A DNA stretch of 64,000 nucleotides from contig NZ_CP025543.1 of assembly GCF_002865545.1 (NCBI RefSeq), positions 1 to 64,000 on the forward strand, written 5' to 3'. Positions 27,847 to 58,060 of the stretch are shown here, in pieces (the first letter of the stretch is position 1; each line of letters starts with the position of its first letter). Source of the stretch: Spiroplasma monobiae MQ-1 (lineage in GTDB: Bacteria; Bacillota_I; Bacilli_A; Mycoplasmatales; Mycoplasmataceae). The position numbers and the translations under genes are program-made. The notes beneath the pieces were generated by a model, which saw only the letters and a program-made list of their open reading frames with translations, ran no database searches and was not told the origin of the DNA.

Positions 27847-29031
27847 ATGAACTACTACATCAGATTTGATAGTAATTTTTATAATGTTGTTGATGGTAAT
27901 ACAAATCAAGTGATTGCGTCATTTGTTAGTGATTTTGAAGCTAACAAATTTATACAATCACTTTTTGGCTTTGCCTTAAACCCATTTGCAAGAAATCAAC
28001 CTCAAGTAATTAATCATTATCCTATTAATAATCAGATACCTATGTATACAAACCAAATACCAATGCAAATAAATCCAAACAATCAATACCAATTAGTGCC
28101 ACCCCTGAATCAAGGCACTATTCAACAAGGTATCTTGCAACAACCTCAAATGATGCAACAACCTCAAATGATGCAACAACCTCAAATGATGCAACAACCT
28201 CAAACGATGCAACAACCTCAAATGATGCAACAACCTCAAATGATGCAACAACCTCAAATGATGCAACAACCTCAAACGATGCAACAACCTCAAATGATGC
28301 AACAACCTCAAATGATGCAATCACAAACAATGATGCAAGAACCAAATATTGTACAACCTCAAACGATGCAACAAGTTGCTCCAGAACCAAATTTGAAAGC
28401 TGTAGAGCCCAATCAAAGTGTTGTTCAAGAACAAATTTTTGAACAATTAAACCAAAATACAGTTGTTAAAACAAACGAAAATAACATCTTTGAAGAAAAA
28501 GAAGAAGAGTTTAAGTTTGAATTTAATGACAATACTTTATCGATAGATTCAAGTTTATTTGAAGAAGATAAAATGGGAGCAATAATACAGGAACCAAATA
28601 GTTTTGTTAACAATACTGACGATGATAGTCTTGGAGAAGTTTCTGCATATAAAGACATAAAACATGTAGAACAAAAACAAGTAGAAATAATTGATGATAA
28701 TACATTTGGATTTGAGGATATACCGGACTTAGACGAAGACTTTGCTTTTAAGGAACCAGTTTCTAAAAGCACAGAAGAAGAAAAAGCCATTACAGAAATT
28801 TATGAGGAAAACTTAATACCAGAAAGTAGAGTTACATCAAAAAAGGATGACGGTTTAATTGATCTTGGACCAATGAATGAAGAAGATGATATATTCTCAA
28901 CACCAAGAAAAGATGCTGAACAAGATGATTTTGAAGTATTCTCCTTATCTAAAAAGGAAAAAGCAGAACTTAAAAAAGCCAAAAAAAGAGAAGAACTTTC
29001 AAGAAAGAGATATCAAAAACTTTTAAGATAA
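27847..29031 (+). CDS. Hypothetical protein with Gln-Gln-Pro-Gln-Met-Met repeats
   Basis: The 394-residue protein has three parts. Residues 1-60 look like a small folded domain (start MNYYIRFDSNFYNVVDG). Residues 98-157 are ten exact or near-exact QQPQ(M/T)M hexapeptides within a Gln/Asn/Pro-rich segment (about 50-185). Residues 195-394 are acidic and end in a basic helix, KKEKAELKKAKKREEL. No signal peptide or membrane segment is seen, so it is probably cytoplasmic and partly disordered. ATG 27847 is the first in frame; the Shine-Dalgarno is weak (GGGG). The stop overlaps the ung ATG (TAATG). Function is unknown; a scaffold role is only a guess. Confidence 0.85.
   Translation: MNYYIRFDSNFYNVVDGNTNQVIASFVSDFEANKFIQSLFGFALNPFARNQPQVINHYPINNQIPMYTNQIPMQINPNNQYQLVPPLNQGTIQQGILQQPQMMQQPQMMQQPQMMQQPQTMQQPQMMQQPQMMQQPQMMQQPQTMQQPQMMQQPQMMQSQTMMQEPNIVQPQTMQQVAPEPNLKAVEPNQSVVQEQIFEQLNQNTVVKTNENNIFEEKEEEFKFEFNDNTLSIDSSLFEEDKMGAIIQEPNSFVNNTDDDSLGEVSAYKDIKHVEQKQVEIIDDNTFGFEDIPDLDEDFAFKEPVSKSTEEEKAITEIYEENLIPESRVTSKKDDGLIDLGPMNEEDDIFSTPRKDAEQDDFEVFSLSKKEKAELKKAKKREELSRKRYQKLLR
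28138..28317 (+). repeat. Nested 18-bp/72-bp tandem repeat
   Basis: There are ten 18-bp units, CAACAACCTCAAATGATG. Units 4 (28192) and 8 (28264) carry ACG in place of the first ATG codon and are otherwise identical. The pattern M-M-M-T, M-M-M-T, M-M means a 72-bp block (4 units) was itself copied. Nucleotide identity is essentially perfect, so the expansion is recent. Both other-strand frames stay open only because of the periodicity. Confidence 0.95.
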
Positions 29032-30635: not shown

Positions 30636-31967
30636 ATGAAATTATATGATTCTTTAACAACAAAACTAAAAGAAATAGATGTTCCTAAGGTTTGTATTTA
30701 TAATTGTGGACCAACTGTTTATGACTATATACACATAGGAAATGCAAGACCTTTAATTTTAACTGACATTATTATTAAATATTTAGAGCACAGAGATATT
30801 AAATATAAATATTTATTAAATATAACAGATATCGATGACAAAATAATAAATAAAGCTTTAGAAAAAAATATGACAGAAGAAGATTACACAAAAAAATTTA
30901 CCAATGCTTTTTTGGAGGATATAGATTCTTTGAACATAAAAAGACCAACAGCTATTCTACCTATATCTACAAAAATAAATGAAATTTTAATTTTCATAGA
31001 CGACCTAATTAAAAAAGACTTTGCCTATGAAGTTGATGGTAATGTTTATTTTGACATTAGTCAATGAGAGACAAAATACGGAATGCTATCCAAACAAAAT
31101 TTGGAGCAATTAAATATGGGTGAAAGAATAGAGGTTGATCAAAATAAAAGAAGTCCTCAAGATTTTATTTTATGAAAAAAAACTGATACCGGCAAAAAAT
31201 GACTATCTAAATGAAGTTTAGGAAGACCTGGATGACACACCGAGTGTGCATTGCTAATTGATGATTATTTTAATAACTCAATTGATATTCACATCGGAGG
31301 AATAGATTTAAAATTTCCACATCACGAAAACGAAAGAATTCAATACATGGCTAAAAATTCAAAGGAAATAGCTAAGGTTTGAGTGCATAATGGCCATTTA
31401 TCAATTGATAATGTTAAAATGTCAAAATCTTTAAAGAATACAATATCTGTTAGAGATTATATAAAAGATAACGGAAGCAATTCTTTAAGATATATTTTTA
31501 CAAACTCAAACTATAAACAACCTTTAAATATTACACAAGAATTAATAAATCAATCTAAGGATTGAGTTTCAAAAATTGAAACTATGTTAAAAACTGTCAA
31601 CTGATCAAGTGCTATAGGTGAAGTTATTTTAACAAACCAAACTCCAATTGATGAAGATTTTAACTCATACAAATATCTAACAAAATTTAGAGCAATAATT
31701 AGAAATGATTTAAACACTCCAATGGCAATATCTTTAATTGATGAAATGTGTAGAAATATCAATAAGCAAATAAAAGCAAAAATGGTAGATTTAACTTTTT
31801 CAAAACTAAAAGTTATACTAGATATACTGGGCTTTAAATTTGAAGAAAAAAAATTAACACCAGAAGATATTGAAAAAATTAAAAAATGAAAATCATGTAT
31901 TGATACAAAAGATTTTGAAGAAGCAGATAAATTGAGGGAACAACTTAAACAGGAGAATATCATCTAA
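30636..31967 (+). CDS. cysS: Cysteinyl-tRNA synthetase
   Basis: CysRS charges tRNA-Cys. The 443-residue class I enzyme has the zinc Cys24 in [12 protein letters not shown] at 33-36 (HIGH motif) and KMSKS at 261-265. Many TGA codons are Trp. ATG 30636 follows GAAGGA. It is slightly shorter than E. coli CysRS (461). Its stop overlaps the rlmB ATG (TAATG), and the order cysS-rlmB-sigma is that of Bacillus, although mrnC (ribonuclease) and yacP are missing between them. Confidence 0.96.
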
Positions 31968-32686
31968 TGAAAAATTATATTTATGGAAAAAATGCAGTTG
32001 AAAACATAATAAGAAATTTTAAAAGCGAAATAAAGCAAGTTTTCATTTTAAAGGGACACTCATTTGATCCAGAAATTTATAATTTAATAAAAGAACAAAA
32101 AATAGAATGACATTCCTTGGAAAAACAAGAATTTAATGTTTTAATAAAAGAAGGTGTAAACCACCAAGGGCTAATAGCGCAAGTTAAGGATTTTAAATAT
32201 CTAGAACTTAAAGAATTTTATAATGATTCAAAATTAAAACAAATAGTTTTAATTTTAGACAAAATACAAGACCCACAAAACTTTGGGTCAATTATAAGAA
32301 CAGCAAGTTTATTTGGGGTTGATGGAATAATAATACAAGAAACAAATCAAGTTCAAGTTACTCCGGCTGTTATGAAGGCTTCTGCTGGAACCATTTATAA
32401 CGTACCAATTATAAAAGTTAGTAATCTAAAATCTGCAATAAGCAATTTGAAAGATAGGGGATTTTGGATATACAGTTCGTATCTAAATGAACAAAGTGTA
32501 TCGATTAAGGAAATTGATTTTGACAATAAGTCGGCAATAATAATAGGGAATGAGGGAAACGGTATCACAAACAAAATCGTAGAAATGTCAGATTTTGTTT
32601 TTAAGATTGATACCACTAACGTAATAGATTCGTTAAATGTTTCGGTAGCAACAGGAATTATACTTTTTGAATTATCTAATAATTAA
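31967..32686 (+). CDS. rlmB: 23S rRNA 2'-O-methyltransferase (RlmB/TrmH family)
   Basis: SPOUT-class enzyme, usually methylating G2251 in 23S rRNA. The 239-residue protein has an N-terminal substrate-binding domain (YIYGKNAVENII) and SPOUT motifs: motif 1 DPQNFGSIIRTA, motif 2 around IIIGNEGNGI, and motif 3 SLNVSVATGIILFE. One TGA is Trp. It starts within the cysS stop. Bacillus has the homologue yacO at the same locus. The exact rRNA or tRNA target is inferred. Confidence 0.9.
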
Positions 32687-32707
32687 AATATAGATAGGAA
32701 TAAAAGA

Positions 32708-33331
32708 ATGAACAATTTTAAACACATTATCAATGAGGTGATAGCATCTGAATTTTCAGAACAACTAACAAAAGAGACACTAATGCATTTTCAAAGATCA
32801 GTAATTAAGATAATAAATACAGAACACCAAAAAATTAGTTTCTTACAATTAGAGAAAGATGACCTTACTTCACAAGTTTTTCTTGCAATTAAAGAAGTGA
32901 AAGAGAAATATGACATAAATAAGAATGTTCCATTAATAGCATATGCAAATTTTATAATAAAAAGAAGAATACTTGATTATGCAAAATTTCTAAAAAGAGA
33001 TAAAAGAAAAATAACTATTCAAATGATAAATTCATATAGAAGCGGTTTAACAGATGAGGGTCAAACATTTTTAGAAAGAGACATAGATCGTTTTTCTTTT
33101 GTAAAAAGCAAGGAAGATGACAGGAGTAATGAAATAAAGGAATTATTCTTTCTTTTTATTGAAAAAACAAAAGATAAAGTAGAGAAGAAAGCGGCTATGA
33201 TGCTTTACAAAGGATATAGTCAAAAAGAAATTATAGAAAAAAATAATATAACAAGAAAAGATTTCTTGAAATTAAAAGAAAAACTAAAAAAGTTTTTTAA
33301 CTATTTTATTAAAGATATAAGTAAGTTATAA
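32708..33331 (+). CDS. SigH-like sigma-70 family factor
   Basis: The 207-residue protein looks like a divergent sigma-70 factor of the SigH type. Region 2 is suggested by DLTSQVFLAIKEVKEKYD and VPLIAYANFIIKRRILDYAK (about 50-100), followed by a basic segment RDKRKITIQMINSY. Region 4 with a helix-turn-helix is at about 158-195 (LYKGYSQKEIIEKNN). It lies between rlmB and rpmG-secE-nusG, exactly where Bacillus has sigH. Start ATG 32708 follows TAGGAA. Whether it is an active sigma factor is inferred; it lacks a sporulation context in this organism. Confidence 0.72.
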   Translation: MNNFKHIINEVIASEFSEQLTKETLMHFQRSVIKIINTEHQKISFLQLEKDDLTSQVFLAIKEVKEKYDINKNVPLIAYANFIIKRRILDYAKFLKRDKRKITIQMINSYRSGLTDEGQTFLERDIDRFSFVKSKEDDRSNEIKELFFLFIEKTKDKVEKKAAMMLYKGYSQKEIIEKNNITRKDFLKLKEKLKKFFNYFIKDISKL

Positions 33332-33358: not shown

Positions 33359-33517
33359 ATGCCACAATCAAAGAAAAAAGTTATATTGGTTTGTAGTGAG
33401 TGTCTTTCAAGAAACTACACTATTCAAAAGAGCACAATTTCTCAAAGAGAAAGATTACAAATCAAAAAACATTGTATAACATGCAACGCTCATGTTCTAC
33501 ATAAGGAGACAAGATAA
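33359..33517 (+). CDS. rpmG: 50S ribosomal protein L33
   Basis: L33 is a small zinc-ribbon ribosomal protein. The 52-residue product has Cys pairs CSEC and CITC and the family segment RNYTIQKS. The ATG at 33359 has AAGAAGAGAG upstream. It is 27 bp after the sigma-like gene and 3 bp before secE, the Bacillus rpmGB-secE-nusG order. The zinc-binding form is the C+ type of L33. Confidence 0.95.
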
Positions 33518-33520
33518 AAA

Positions 33521-33931
33521 ATGTCTGACAAAAAAGATTTAAGAGAGCAAAAAGCTCAAGATAAATTAAATAAAATTAAAGAAAAACAAGCTCAAAAAGA
33601 AGCTAAGAAAGAAACTAAAAAAAATAAAAAAGAAGAATTCACTAAGCTTTACAATGAGTTTGAAGGGCATGACGGAACACAAGAAGGTAAAATCAAAGCC
33701 GCTAAAAACAAAAGAGTCAAAAAAGAAAAAGAAAAAATAGATTATAAATTAGCTTTAAAAGAAGCACCTGTTAAATTTCTTAAAGAAGTAAACAAAATAC
33801 AATGATCATCAAGAAAAAATTTAGGAACTAAATTTTTATGGGTTATAATATTTATTGCAATATTTGGAGTGTTTTTCTTCTGTGTTGATTTAGCATTCCA
33901 AAACTTATTTGAACTTATCAGAATTATCTAA
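33521..33931 (+). CDS. secE: Preprotein translocase subunit SecE
   Basis: SecE is part of the SecYEG channel. Only the last 45 or so of 136 residues are the SecE core: a basic amphipathic helix ending in WSSRKNLGTKFLW and one transmembrane segment (about 104-128). Residues 1-90 are a charged, Lys/Glu/Gln-rich extension, unlike the 59-residue Bacillus SecE. One TGA (Trp) is at 33803. ATG 33521 follows AAGGAGA. Its place between rpmG and nusG settles the identity. Confidence 0.9.
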
Positions 33932-33943
33932 AAGGAGATTATC

Positions 33944-34573
33944 ATGGAACAAAACTTATTTGAATTAGAAGATGAACTTTCATCTTACAAAGGACAATGA
34001 TTTGTAATTAACTGTAACAGTGGGCACGAGGATCGTGTCAGAGCCGATTTACTACAAAAAATAGAAACATCAGGATTAGAAGACAGAATATTCGATATTA
34101 GAATTTCAAAAGGGCCTGTAATGGGTAAAAACAACAAAATTAATGAAAAGAATAAATTTCCCGGATATTTATTTATAAATATGAACATGACTGACGAAAC
34201 ATGATTTATTGTTAGAAACACACCTGGTGTAACAGGGTTTATTGGTTCATCTGGTAAAGGGGCCAAACCTTTACCATTAACAGTGGAAGAGGTTTCAAGA
34301 ATGTTGGAACAACAATCAACCCAACAATCAAAAGGAGAAAAATCTTCAAAAGGGAATGCAAATCAACCCAAAAGAGAAAAAGTTTTATATACAGCTAATT
34401 TCAATGTGAAAGATGTTGTCCTTGTTAAGGATGGTCCCTTTGCAGGTACTGAAGGGCAAGTTATGGAAATGGATTTCGAAAAGGGTGTTGCGGTTGTTAA
34501 CATCGAACTATTCGGAAGAATTACACCAACTGAATTTGAATTCTCAAGTTTAGAAAAAGCTTTTGTTAACTAA
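33944..34573 (+). CDS. nusG: Transcription termination/antitermination protein NusG
   Basis: NusG binds RNA polymerase and modulates pausing and termination. The 209-residue protein has the NGN domain (WFVINCNSGHE start, YLFINMNM, WFIVRNTPGVTGF) and a C-terminal KOW motif (DVVLVKDGPFAGTEGQV). A Ser/Gln-rich linker of about 30 residues separates them, longer than usual. TGA codons are Trp. ATG 33944 follows AAAGGAG. A strong terminator follows. Confidence 0.96.
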
Positions 34574-35194: not shown

Positions 35195-35267
35195 ATTTTA
35201 ATTGTGGAAGTAAGTATGCAAATGCATAACTACGTTAGGACCACAGCGAAAACAGGAGGTGTTGTTC
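35195..35267 (+). promoter_or_regulatory. rplK-rplA 5' leader with stem-loops
   Basis: Between a TATTAT -10-like element (about 35180) and rplK, TGTGG (35203-35207) can pair with CCACA (35241-35245). Inside lies a TATGCA/TGCATA inverted repeat (35215-35220, 35223-35228). The rplK Shine-Dalgarno AGGAGG follows. rplK-rplA operons are controlled by L1 in other bacteria, so it could be an L1 target, but no characteristic motif was proven. Confidence 0.4.
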
Positions 35268-35702
35268 GTGGCAAAAAGAATCACACGTATAGCAAAATTA
35301 GAATTTATGGCAATGCAAGCAAAACCTGGTGCAGAATTAGCTTCACTTGGAATTAACATGCCAGTATTCACACAACAATTTAATGACGCCACTAAAGATA
35401 GAGCTGGAGAAATAGTGCCTGTAGTTATTACAGCTTATGACGATAAATCATGCGATTTCGTTTTAAAAACTACTCCAGCAGCATTTATGCTTAAAAAAGC
35501 AGCAGGAATTCAAAAAGGTGCATCTAAATCAGGAACTGAAACAGTTGCAACTATTACAGCAGAAGATATTAAAAAAATTGCTGAATATAAATTACCTGAT
35601 TTAAATGCAAATACAGTTGAAGCAGCTATGAGAATTATTGAAGGATCAGCTAGAAATATGGGTATAAAAGTTACTGGAATGCCTGAAAAAGAAGGTAAAT
35701 AG
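35268..35702 (+). CDS. rplK: 50S ribosomal protein L11
   Basis: L11 forms the stalk base with 23S rRNA and the factor-binding centre. The 144-residue product has [17 protein letters not shown] and the long C-terminal helix. The start is GTG at 35268, since it gives [12 protein letters not shown] and lies 6 bases after AGGAGGT; in-frame GTG at 35259 is inside the Shine-Dalgarno. It is followed 2 bp later by rplA. Confidence 0.96.
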
Positions 35703-56405: not shown

Positions 56406-56455
56406 TAAAAAAGCAGAACTAAGAAGTTGATTCTTGTTCTGCTTTTCTTTTTTCT
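56406..56455. terminator. Bidirectional hairpin at the end of the exonuclease gene
   Basis: AAGCAGAAC and GTTCTGCTT arms, extended inward by AAGAA/TTCTT, lie across the 3' end and stop codon of the minus-strand gene. T-rich DNA flanks it on both strands, so it could stop convergent transcription. Confidence 0.7.
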
Positions 56456-57348
56456 CTGTAAGCCAGTTGTCTTTGCACTTTATCCTCAATCATTTTTGTG
56501 AATGCTCACATTTTCTCTCTTTTTAAGAACCCCATAAATCTAACATAGTTTATCCTTAATGGTTTAAAATTGATTCTTCCAATTTCGACATTTTTTAATA
56601 TTCTAGTTATTTGTTTATTCATTAAAACTTGTTCTCTACATTGTTCAAGTTTTTTTCTTTGTTCCTCAGGAAAGTCGTTTAAGTTTTTAAATACATTTTC
56701 AACACAACCATATTTAGAAATTAATTTTGTTGCTGTATTATAATGCATGCCCCTAACGCCTTTAATATTATCTGATTGATCTCCTAATAAAGATTTTATG
56801 TCTGGAATTTGACATGGTTTACAACCAAATTTTTCATAAACTTCTTTAGCTGTAATTATTTCTTGTTTACACTTTTTGGATTGCTGTGAAACGATTCTTA
56901 CATCATCAGATACTAATTGATAAGTATCTTTATCATTTGAAACAATATCAACTTGATAACCTAGTTTAACTGCAATTCTAGCAATTGTTCCCATAATGTC
57001 ATCACCCTCAAATGAAACCTTTTCATATCAAGGTATATTAGCTGATGTTAAAAAATCCCTTACTAATTGCATTTGTGGAATTAAATCTGATGGTGTCTCT
57101 TTTCTTGTAGCTTTATATTCTGGATATATTTCTTTTCTTCAACATTCTTTACCAACATCAAAAGTTACAATAACTGTATGATATTCGTTTGATTGAACTA
57201 GTTGAAAAATGTTTGCTACAAAAACGTAAACTGCATTTATTAAAACACCTTCTCTGTTCATTGCCACTTTTTTTCTTTTTAAACTTCCATAATAACCCTT
57301 ATGAAGAAGGTGATATCCATCGATGATTACCACTTTTTTCTTATCCAT
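56419..57348 (-). CDS. 5'-3' exonuclease (PolA N-terminal domain type)
   Basis: Stand-alone flap/5'-3' exonuclease that removes RNA primers. The 309-residue protein has the metal-binding Asp clusters in IIDGYHLLHKGYYG, FEGDDIMGTIAR and VSNDKDTYQLV, then the helix-hairpin-helix GDQSDNIKGVRG. It lacks a polymerase domain, which is usual in Mollicutes. TGA codons (for example near 57140, 56506) are Trp. ATG 57348 (minus strand) follows AAAGGAGAG. It is transcribed after the YigZ-like gene, 13 bp downstream of its stop. It is the only minus-strand pair in the window. Confidence 0.93.
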
Positions 57349-57361
57349 TGTTGCTCTCCTT

Positions 57362-57970
57362 TTAATAATACCCTTGTACTTTTTTTATGATTTTAATTTT
57401 ACTTTTTATTGGATCAAGTTTTTCCATCTGATCCAATTTTAGTTTTGCATAAACCAAATCATCGATGTAGTTGTATTTAATTTCGCTTGCTATATTTTTT
57501 AAGCTTGAACTTATAGTTTTAATATCAGATATATTAAAAATAATCTCTAGATTATAAAGAAATTCCAATTGTTTGGTGTTCAACTCTTTTAACATCTCTA
57601 TTGCAAGATGGCTATATGCTTTTTGTAATCCACCAGTTCCTAGTTTAATTCCACCATAGTATCTTATTACTAAAATAACTATATTGGTTAGATTGTTGAC
57701 TTCAATTAACTTAAGCAATGGTTCTCCGGCTGTTCCATTGGGTTCGCCATCATTATTATAACCATAAGTTAATTTTTCATCGCCACACCTGTAGGCATAA
57801 CAATTATGAGTTGCGTTTTTATCGCTGAATTTTTTAATAAAGATATCCAACTCTTCTTTATCTTTGACTTTTGAAATATAGGTAATGAATTTAGATTTTT
57901 TTATTGTGAAATTTCTTTCTACAACTTTTTCATCGTTTAATATTCTTAAAAATATCATAACTTTAACCAT
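57362..57970 (-). CDS. YigZ/IMPACT family protein
   Basis: The 202-residue protein has the YigZ/UPF0029 signature: KKSKFITYISKV, ATHNCYAYR, DGEPNGTAGEPLL and VIRYYGGIKLGTGGL. Homologues include eukaryotic IMPACT; the bacterial function is not settled, although a role in ribosome or tRNA-related control is suggested. The minus-strand ATG at 57970 follows AAGG; a longer start at 58003 is possible. It is the first gene of the minus-strand operon with the exonuclease. Confidence 0.88.
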   Translation of the reverse strand: MVKVMIFLRILNDEKVVERNFTIKKSKFITYISKVKDKEELDIFIKKFSDKNATHNCYAYRCGDEKLTYGYNNDGEPNGTAGEPLLKLIEVNNLTNIVILVIRYYGGIKLGTGGLQKAYSHLAIEMLKELNTKQLEFLYNLEIIFNISDIKTISSSLKNIASEIKYNYIDDLVYAKLKLDQMEKLDPIKSKIKIIKKVQGYY

Positions 57971-58060
57971 TAATAATAATACCTTGTAATTGGTAAAAAA
58001 CATATATTATTTGCTATATTCTTTTAAAAGTGTTAATCTCTTGAAAAGGGAGACAACAAT

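Follow-up and report, generated by a model that had tools for sequence, protein, structure and literature searches.

The usual model of mollicutes has a single sigma factor, and the gene that lies between rlmB and rpmG in Spiroplasma monobiae MQ-1 raises the question whether a non-sporulating member of this group has kept the SigH of its Firmicute relatives, and what such a protein would do. The window analysed here is a stretch of 64,000 nt (positions 1 to 64,000 of contig NZ_CP025543.1) from a genome consisting of a single contig of 891,575 bp (code 4). The gene, sigH (32708..33331, plus strand), starts with ATG, is intact and open in code 4 and 11, and follows a probable ribosome-binding site (AGGA, 32696..32699, plus strand); its product of 207 aa was assigned to the SigH family from its sequence, its homologues, profile-profile alignment and a structure model. 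On the same strand it is preceded by cysS (30636..31967), the upstream part of the conserved block, and by rlmB (31967..32686), the 5' neighbour that defines the SigH slot and ends 21 bp before sigH. It is followed after 27 bp by rpmG (33359..33517), then by secE (33521..33931), nusG (33944..34573), a peptidyl-prolyl isomerase gene, rplK (35259..35702), which closes the block used for synteny, and rplA.

Three further features of the window were recorded. SecE (33521-33931) has 136 aa and a long lysine-rich N-terminal extension (typical Bacilli, ~60 aa). The ORF at 27847-29031 contains an 18-bp tandem repeat (28136-28374, 13.4 copies) that encodes a Met/Gln/Pro-rich MMQQPQ repeat and may vary in copy number. 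Two minus-strand genes at 56419-58003, named by eye as 5'-3' exonuclease-like and YigZ/IMPACT-like, lie where the GC skew goes negative; the rest of the window is plus-strand.

Single-sequence scans of the window protein found the generic sigma70 model TIGR02937 (E = 4.8e-8, residues 26-194), which matches 16 of the 17 intact orthologues (best 2e-12), and the Pfam model Sigma70_r2 (PF04542; E = 3.9e-4, under the gathering cut-off, residues 48-93), which matches 15 of them (best 7e-7) and has two matches only in the own genome, RpoD and SigH. The Pfam region-4 models gave no match to the window protein itself; region 4 is seen by profile-profile alignment and in the structure model. Three parts can be delimited, all on the plus strand: sigma region 2, the core-binding and -10 recognition domain (residues 22-112; 32771..33043), from Sigma70_r2, high-pLDDT helices (22-42, 50-67, 76-112) and hhalign to SigH; a flexible linker without region 3 (residues 113-134; 33044..33109), with pLDDT mostly below 60; and sigma region 4 (residues 135-206; 33110..33325), with a helix-turn-helix at ~157-206, from the model, hhalign and the reach of TIGR02937 to residue 194. 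In the AlphaFold model (mean pLDDT 83.7) a loose linker joins two helical domains, both predicted with confidence. A Foldseek search with this model places 9a4r_A first ('RPSH-RPOB', which we read as B. subtilis SigH), with sigma factors making up the listed matches; a different relative orientation of the two domains keeps the TM-scores low (0.29). The rows of the AlphaFold alignment were SigH outgroup proteins, including those from the NusG-based locus search (mostly Erysipelotrichaceae), and the model is therefore supporting, not independent, evidence.

The decisive comparisons are order-wide. The same slot holds SigH in Bacillales and Erysipelotrichales (Sporosarcina, Caryophanon, Salsuginibacillus, Holdemania, Erysipelothrix), and it holds an ORF of 165-245 aa in most genera of the own family and in families f2, f3, f4, f7, f8 and f11; in one genome of f5 the slot ORF has been relocated along with rlmB. 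An alignment of 38 slot ORFs from between rlmB and rpmG/secE/nusG across the order (A2) has a region-2 signature (IPLExxD), a C-terminal helix-turn-helix and, after region 2 in many members, a KHxxLN motif, which the own-genus proteins lack and many other genera have. TIGR02937 matches 36 of the 38 members, and the SigH model 12 (best 1.3e-11). The best PDB match of the A2 profile is sigma-H 3mzy (E = 2e-19 over 49-188; next match 1e-11), and hhalign aligns it over nearly its full length, sigma2 and sigma4, with the SigH proteins from other orders in the class (E = 6.7e-28; own genus alone, 4e-14). The curated NCBIfam SigH model (TIGR02859) matches 3 of the 17 orthologues at all, with its cut-off not reached (best 0.004); none of the 120 genomes sampled from the class reached it either, though many have SigH in the slot, so that this model singles out the sporulation equivalog and not the family at large. 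Synteny through intermediates, profile-profile alignment and the structure model together leave hardly any doubt that the window gene is a SigH orthologue at its ancestral locus.

The sequence-only reading had proposed a SigH-like factor from the Bacillus-like gene order and from very divergent region-2- and region-4-like sequence. The order cysS-rlmB-sigH-rpmG-secE-nusG is confirmed, also via intermediate Bacilli; the sigma-like regions and the divergence (identity down to 22%) are borne out as well, and the SigH identity with them. The lack of any profile-level sigma-domain match, which it had named as a refutation, did not arise: Sigma70_r2 (below its gathering cut-off) and TIGR02937 both match the window protein. 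The Pfam region-4 models do not match it, and the TIGR02859 cut-off was not reached. With SigH of Firmicutes (B. subtilis sigma-H; the staphylococcal, listerial and L. sakei proteins) the protein shares the locus, the two-domain architecture, profile and structural similarity, and strong divergence amid conserved surroundings; unlike these, the Spiroplasma copy occurs without sporulation, has an eroded KHxxLN motif and misses the NCBIfam SigH equivalog cut-offs. A SigH at cysS-nusG with a role in competence is already known from non-sporulating Firmicutes (PMC3364868, PMC3486894). We regard the Spiroplasma gene as the vertical descendant of Firmicute sigH, which would have lost any sporulation role.

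What such a factor might control is suggested by a sequence element consisting of a T-tract, ~10 nt and CGAT(A/T), with CGAT 13-16 nt upstream of the ribosome-binding site. The element lies upstream of recA in 20 of 20 same-genus genomes (19 CGAT, 1 CGAC), in intergenic DNA that is otherwise divergent, and upstream of ssbB-dprA in 16 of 17 (15 of 16 without the own genome); the ssbB start was not found in G011, G016 and G006. The candidate members in the own genome, collected by one pattern search and from syntenic stretches, are recA (272399), with a CinA-domain gene (PF02464) in front of it; a short SSB gene, ssbB (PF00436; 287104), with dprA (PF02481) directly after it; a 94-aa peptide gene (238816; L287:1530-1811) with a double-glycine-like leader (REIVGGKG); and ORFs of unknown function of 250 aa (307356), 498 aa (739032) and 108 aa (669759). 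The peptide has no family match, is bacteriocin-like by eye and is conserved in G007, G017 and G002; the peptide, 250-, 108- and 498-aa genes keep the element in 8 of 8 orthologues examined in these three genomes. The late-competence-type genes identified here are ssbB, dprA, cinA and recA only. The separate gene set that the sequence-only reading expected under a second sigma factor thereby has a concrete candidate: recA, ssbB-dprA and four further units. A 170-aa ORF (MFFYSKDEF...) in L340 (minus strand, offset 4673 of the reverse complement), with CGATAGTAATATTGAGG upstream, is a possible further member.

As a genome-wide signal the pattern CGATN8-14GGAG was rejected, with 25 matches in the own genome vs 27 in the reversed control and hence no excess; only the intergenic, T-run-preceded, ORF-leading subset stands out, and the pattern was retained as a position- and context-restricted signal. 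Nine of 97 promoters (200 kb, three species) carry CGAT at the position, and seven of the nine are predicted members. The element is present in 23 of 24 orthologous promoters vs 2 of 89 controls (Fisher ~1e-20), a comparison among related, not fully independent species with controls drawn from three species only. Across 48 sites the column information is 2.84 bits for C, 2.84 for G, 1.47 for A and 1.28 for T, and the T-tract is centred 14-17 nt upstream; a consensus sigmaA -10 occurs in 16 of the 48 element promoters vs 49 of 88 controls.

These data suggest an alternative sigma factor, compact and with two domains (sigma2 + sigma4), which would work like SigH/ComX of non-sporulating Firmicutes and like sigma20; when active, it would direct RNA polymerase to a small regulon of recombination/competence type, and the promoter that it reads would be the conserved T-tract/CGAT(A/T) element before recA, ssbB-dprA, the GG-leader-like peptide gene and the three unknown genes. 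What the analysis demonstrates is the family, the locus, the two-domain model and the element with its conservation and specificity, whereas SigH as the reader of that element, like the trigger of its activity, is inferred. A role as a competence/recombination sigma factor in Spiroplasma is likely, from the shared, conserved and specific promoter-like element and from the analogy with sigma20 and ComX, and SigH probably drives recA and ssbB-dprA through the CGAT element; the explanation as a whole, an inherited SigH directing a late-competence-like regulon, we hold with reasonably good confidence. The candidate regulon resembles that of streptococcal ComX/SigX (ssbB, dprA, recA beside cinA, a peptide gene), whose gene sits at a different locus and whose SigX-box, TACGAATA (PMC6328492), has the CGA core; the putative -10 in Spiroplasma, CGAT, differs from the GAAT-type of Firmicute SigH. 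Overexpression of SigH in L. sakei raised dprA over 2000-fold (PMC3364868).

The alternative that survives best, although it is unlikely, is a functional SigH with some other regulon, the CGAT element being an RNA element, the binding site of a repressor or an atypical sigmaA promoter. It gains from the indirect tie between protein and element, from the sigmaA-like hexamers that one element promoter in three contains, and from the sigma20 promoter of M. genitalium, TTGTCA-N18/19-ATTWAT, which is unlike the Spiroplasma element. On the other side, position, spacing and gene set of the element fit the -10 of a competence sigma factor, its CGA core resembles the SigX-box (PMC6328492), its genes are classic SigH/ComX late genes, and recA and ssbB of several other genera have in common an element that is specific to the genus and unlike that of Spiroplasma. 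Such elements, often common to recA and ssbB-dprA, are CGTTAACCTAAG in g22, GACGTTATA in g21, CTAATCTATA in g3 and CTTATNCTAT in g4; the case for one is weak in g17, g19 and g20, and the Spiroplasma element was not found unchanged in the other genera compared. Upstream similarity of recA and ssbB is greater within than between genera (p = 2.5e-4, from hand-entered sequences and with kinship ignored), which fits, rather than proves, a co-divergence of sigma factor and promoter.

Within the own genus, sigH occurs at the same place in 20 of 20 genomes (E 3e-7 to 1e-82), with identity to the window protein as low as 22% among the 17 intact orthologues, where the neighbouring genes are still alignable; the ORF is real and conserved more than by chance. 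The three broken copies have lost the stretch before the helix-turn-helix (G013), are frameshifted (G009) or contain several stops (G005). In Spiroplasma poulsonii MSRO (G201) the slot holds sigH as two fragments only (L172:1794-2234), and recA is fragmented too.

A functionless, decaying remnant retained only by its position within an essential operon would account for these broken copies, for those in several genomes of g18 and for the very fast divergence of the protein. We consider it very unlikely: 17 of 20 copies remain intact across divergences down to 22% identity, Mesoplasma-type genomes and M. genitalium have kept sigH although it no longer lies in the operon, and a 'similarity gulf', a divergent sigH in conserved surroundings, is described for the functional staphylococcal SigH (PMC3486894). 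Losses of sigH are also associated with losses of recA. In the own family recA is lost in 7 of 12 genomes with sigH lost or broken (G013, G105, G123, G150, G174, G198, G201) vs 1 of 46 with intact sigH (Fisher 2e-5; counted by hand from tables, with kinship ignored and the recA state of G096 ambiguous), and within genus g18 alone the co-loss has p = 0.03. G123, G150 and G174 are without sigH, recA and dprA alike. Of 17 own-genus genomes, only G013 and G005 have no intact ssbB ORF in front of dprA, and G005 retains the recA element despite its broken sigH. The two genes, sigH and recA, tend to decay together, more often than expected.

A SigI-type factor (heat-shock / RsgI-controlled) sitting by chance in the SigH slot is highly improbable and was rejected: SigI models are the best single-sequence matches (E = 1.6e-9, 17 of 17 orthologues) and the genus profile matches SigI1/SigI6 structures, but the similarity, in a region 2 common to both, is for most matches limited to the N-terminal half and for the A2 profile to region 2 (E = 1.5e-4 only), the genus profile scores 3.6e-6 against SigI vs 4e-14 against SigH, no SigI-C domain is matched, no RsgI gene lies beside sigH whereas the SigI of G281 has its RsgI partner, and SigI occurs in 1 of 100 sampled genomes.

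SigH, the preferred identity, extends well beyond Spiroplasma. Searching the order with the A2 profile gave matches in 242 of 246 genomes; the weak ones (~1e-4 to 1e-6) are RpoD, so that genomes with SigH are fewer than 242, and in genera g12 and g24 of family f7 many genomes have RpoD-type weak matches only. The '87 aa' matches in f7 were likewise rejected, as in the inspected loci (L067, L075) the stretch lies in or beside rpoD. The slot is empty in g5, g2 and g19, where sigH has been relocated: behind a RelA/SpoT-like gene in G054, G059 and G020, and beside glpK in g19. The position 3' of the RelA/SpoT-like gene in the Mesoplasma-type genomes (L378, L379, L380) may point to a link with starvation signalling. 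Genome G155 of family f3 has sigH, a dprA-like and a topA-like gene side by side (L063:572-4238). In G054, which we take to be Mesoplasma florum L1, the A2 profile finds a second, previously unreported sigma factor, the relocated sigH homologue at 323372-323926; one sigma factor was predicted in a study of M. florum (PMC7745072). A survey of 50 mollicutes described alternative sigma factors mostly as species-specific partial homologues (PMC5138195), and SigH goes unmentioned in a 2024 paper on how the Mycoplasmatales lost sporulation (PMC10868615).

One relocated gene links the family to experiment. G035, presumably M. genitalium G37, has a gene of 171 aa between an OsmC-like gene and ptsI, which we take to be MG428; the A2 profile, built without MG428, matches it with E = 4.2e-15 (57.9 bits, positions 25-186), and MG428 matches TIGR02937 with 6.6e-12. 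Judged from these alignments, MG428/sigma20 (MPN626 of M. pneumoniae) belongs to the same order-wide family as Spiroplasma SigH, with both sigma regions homologous. In M. genitalium MG428 reportedly activates recA, ruvA, ruvB and others (PMC9262362). The family therefore includes an experimentally studied alternative sigma factor, and its recA target is a candidate target here; MG428 differs in the relocation of its gene and in a role tied to antigenic variation. No link between MG428 and SigH was found in the literature searched, a scope that leaves Torres-Puig 2015 outside.

The first reading was right that SigH is kept in a non-sporulating mollicute; the idea of a relic in a single species fails, as nearly every family of the order has the slot gene. 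Its premise of one sigma factor matches the usual model; an alternative sigma factor in mollicutes nevertheless has a precedent in MG428/sigma20, from the same family. It is somewhat better than an even chance that the Mycoplasmatales as a whole kept SigH as a second sigma factor for late-competence-like recombination (recA, ssbB-dprA, small peptide genes), with protein and promoter co-diverging by genus and MG428/sigma20 being the relocated M. genitalium copy. The presence of SigH across the order runs against the one-sigma view of mollicutes, and its homology to sigma20, the one alternative factor with a demonstrated role, would tie recombination and gene transfer in mycoplasmas to the SigH/ComX competence switch of Firmicutes. 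A defined candidate promoter element with its gene list bears on whether these wall-less bacteria keep a competence-like state.
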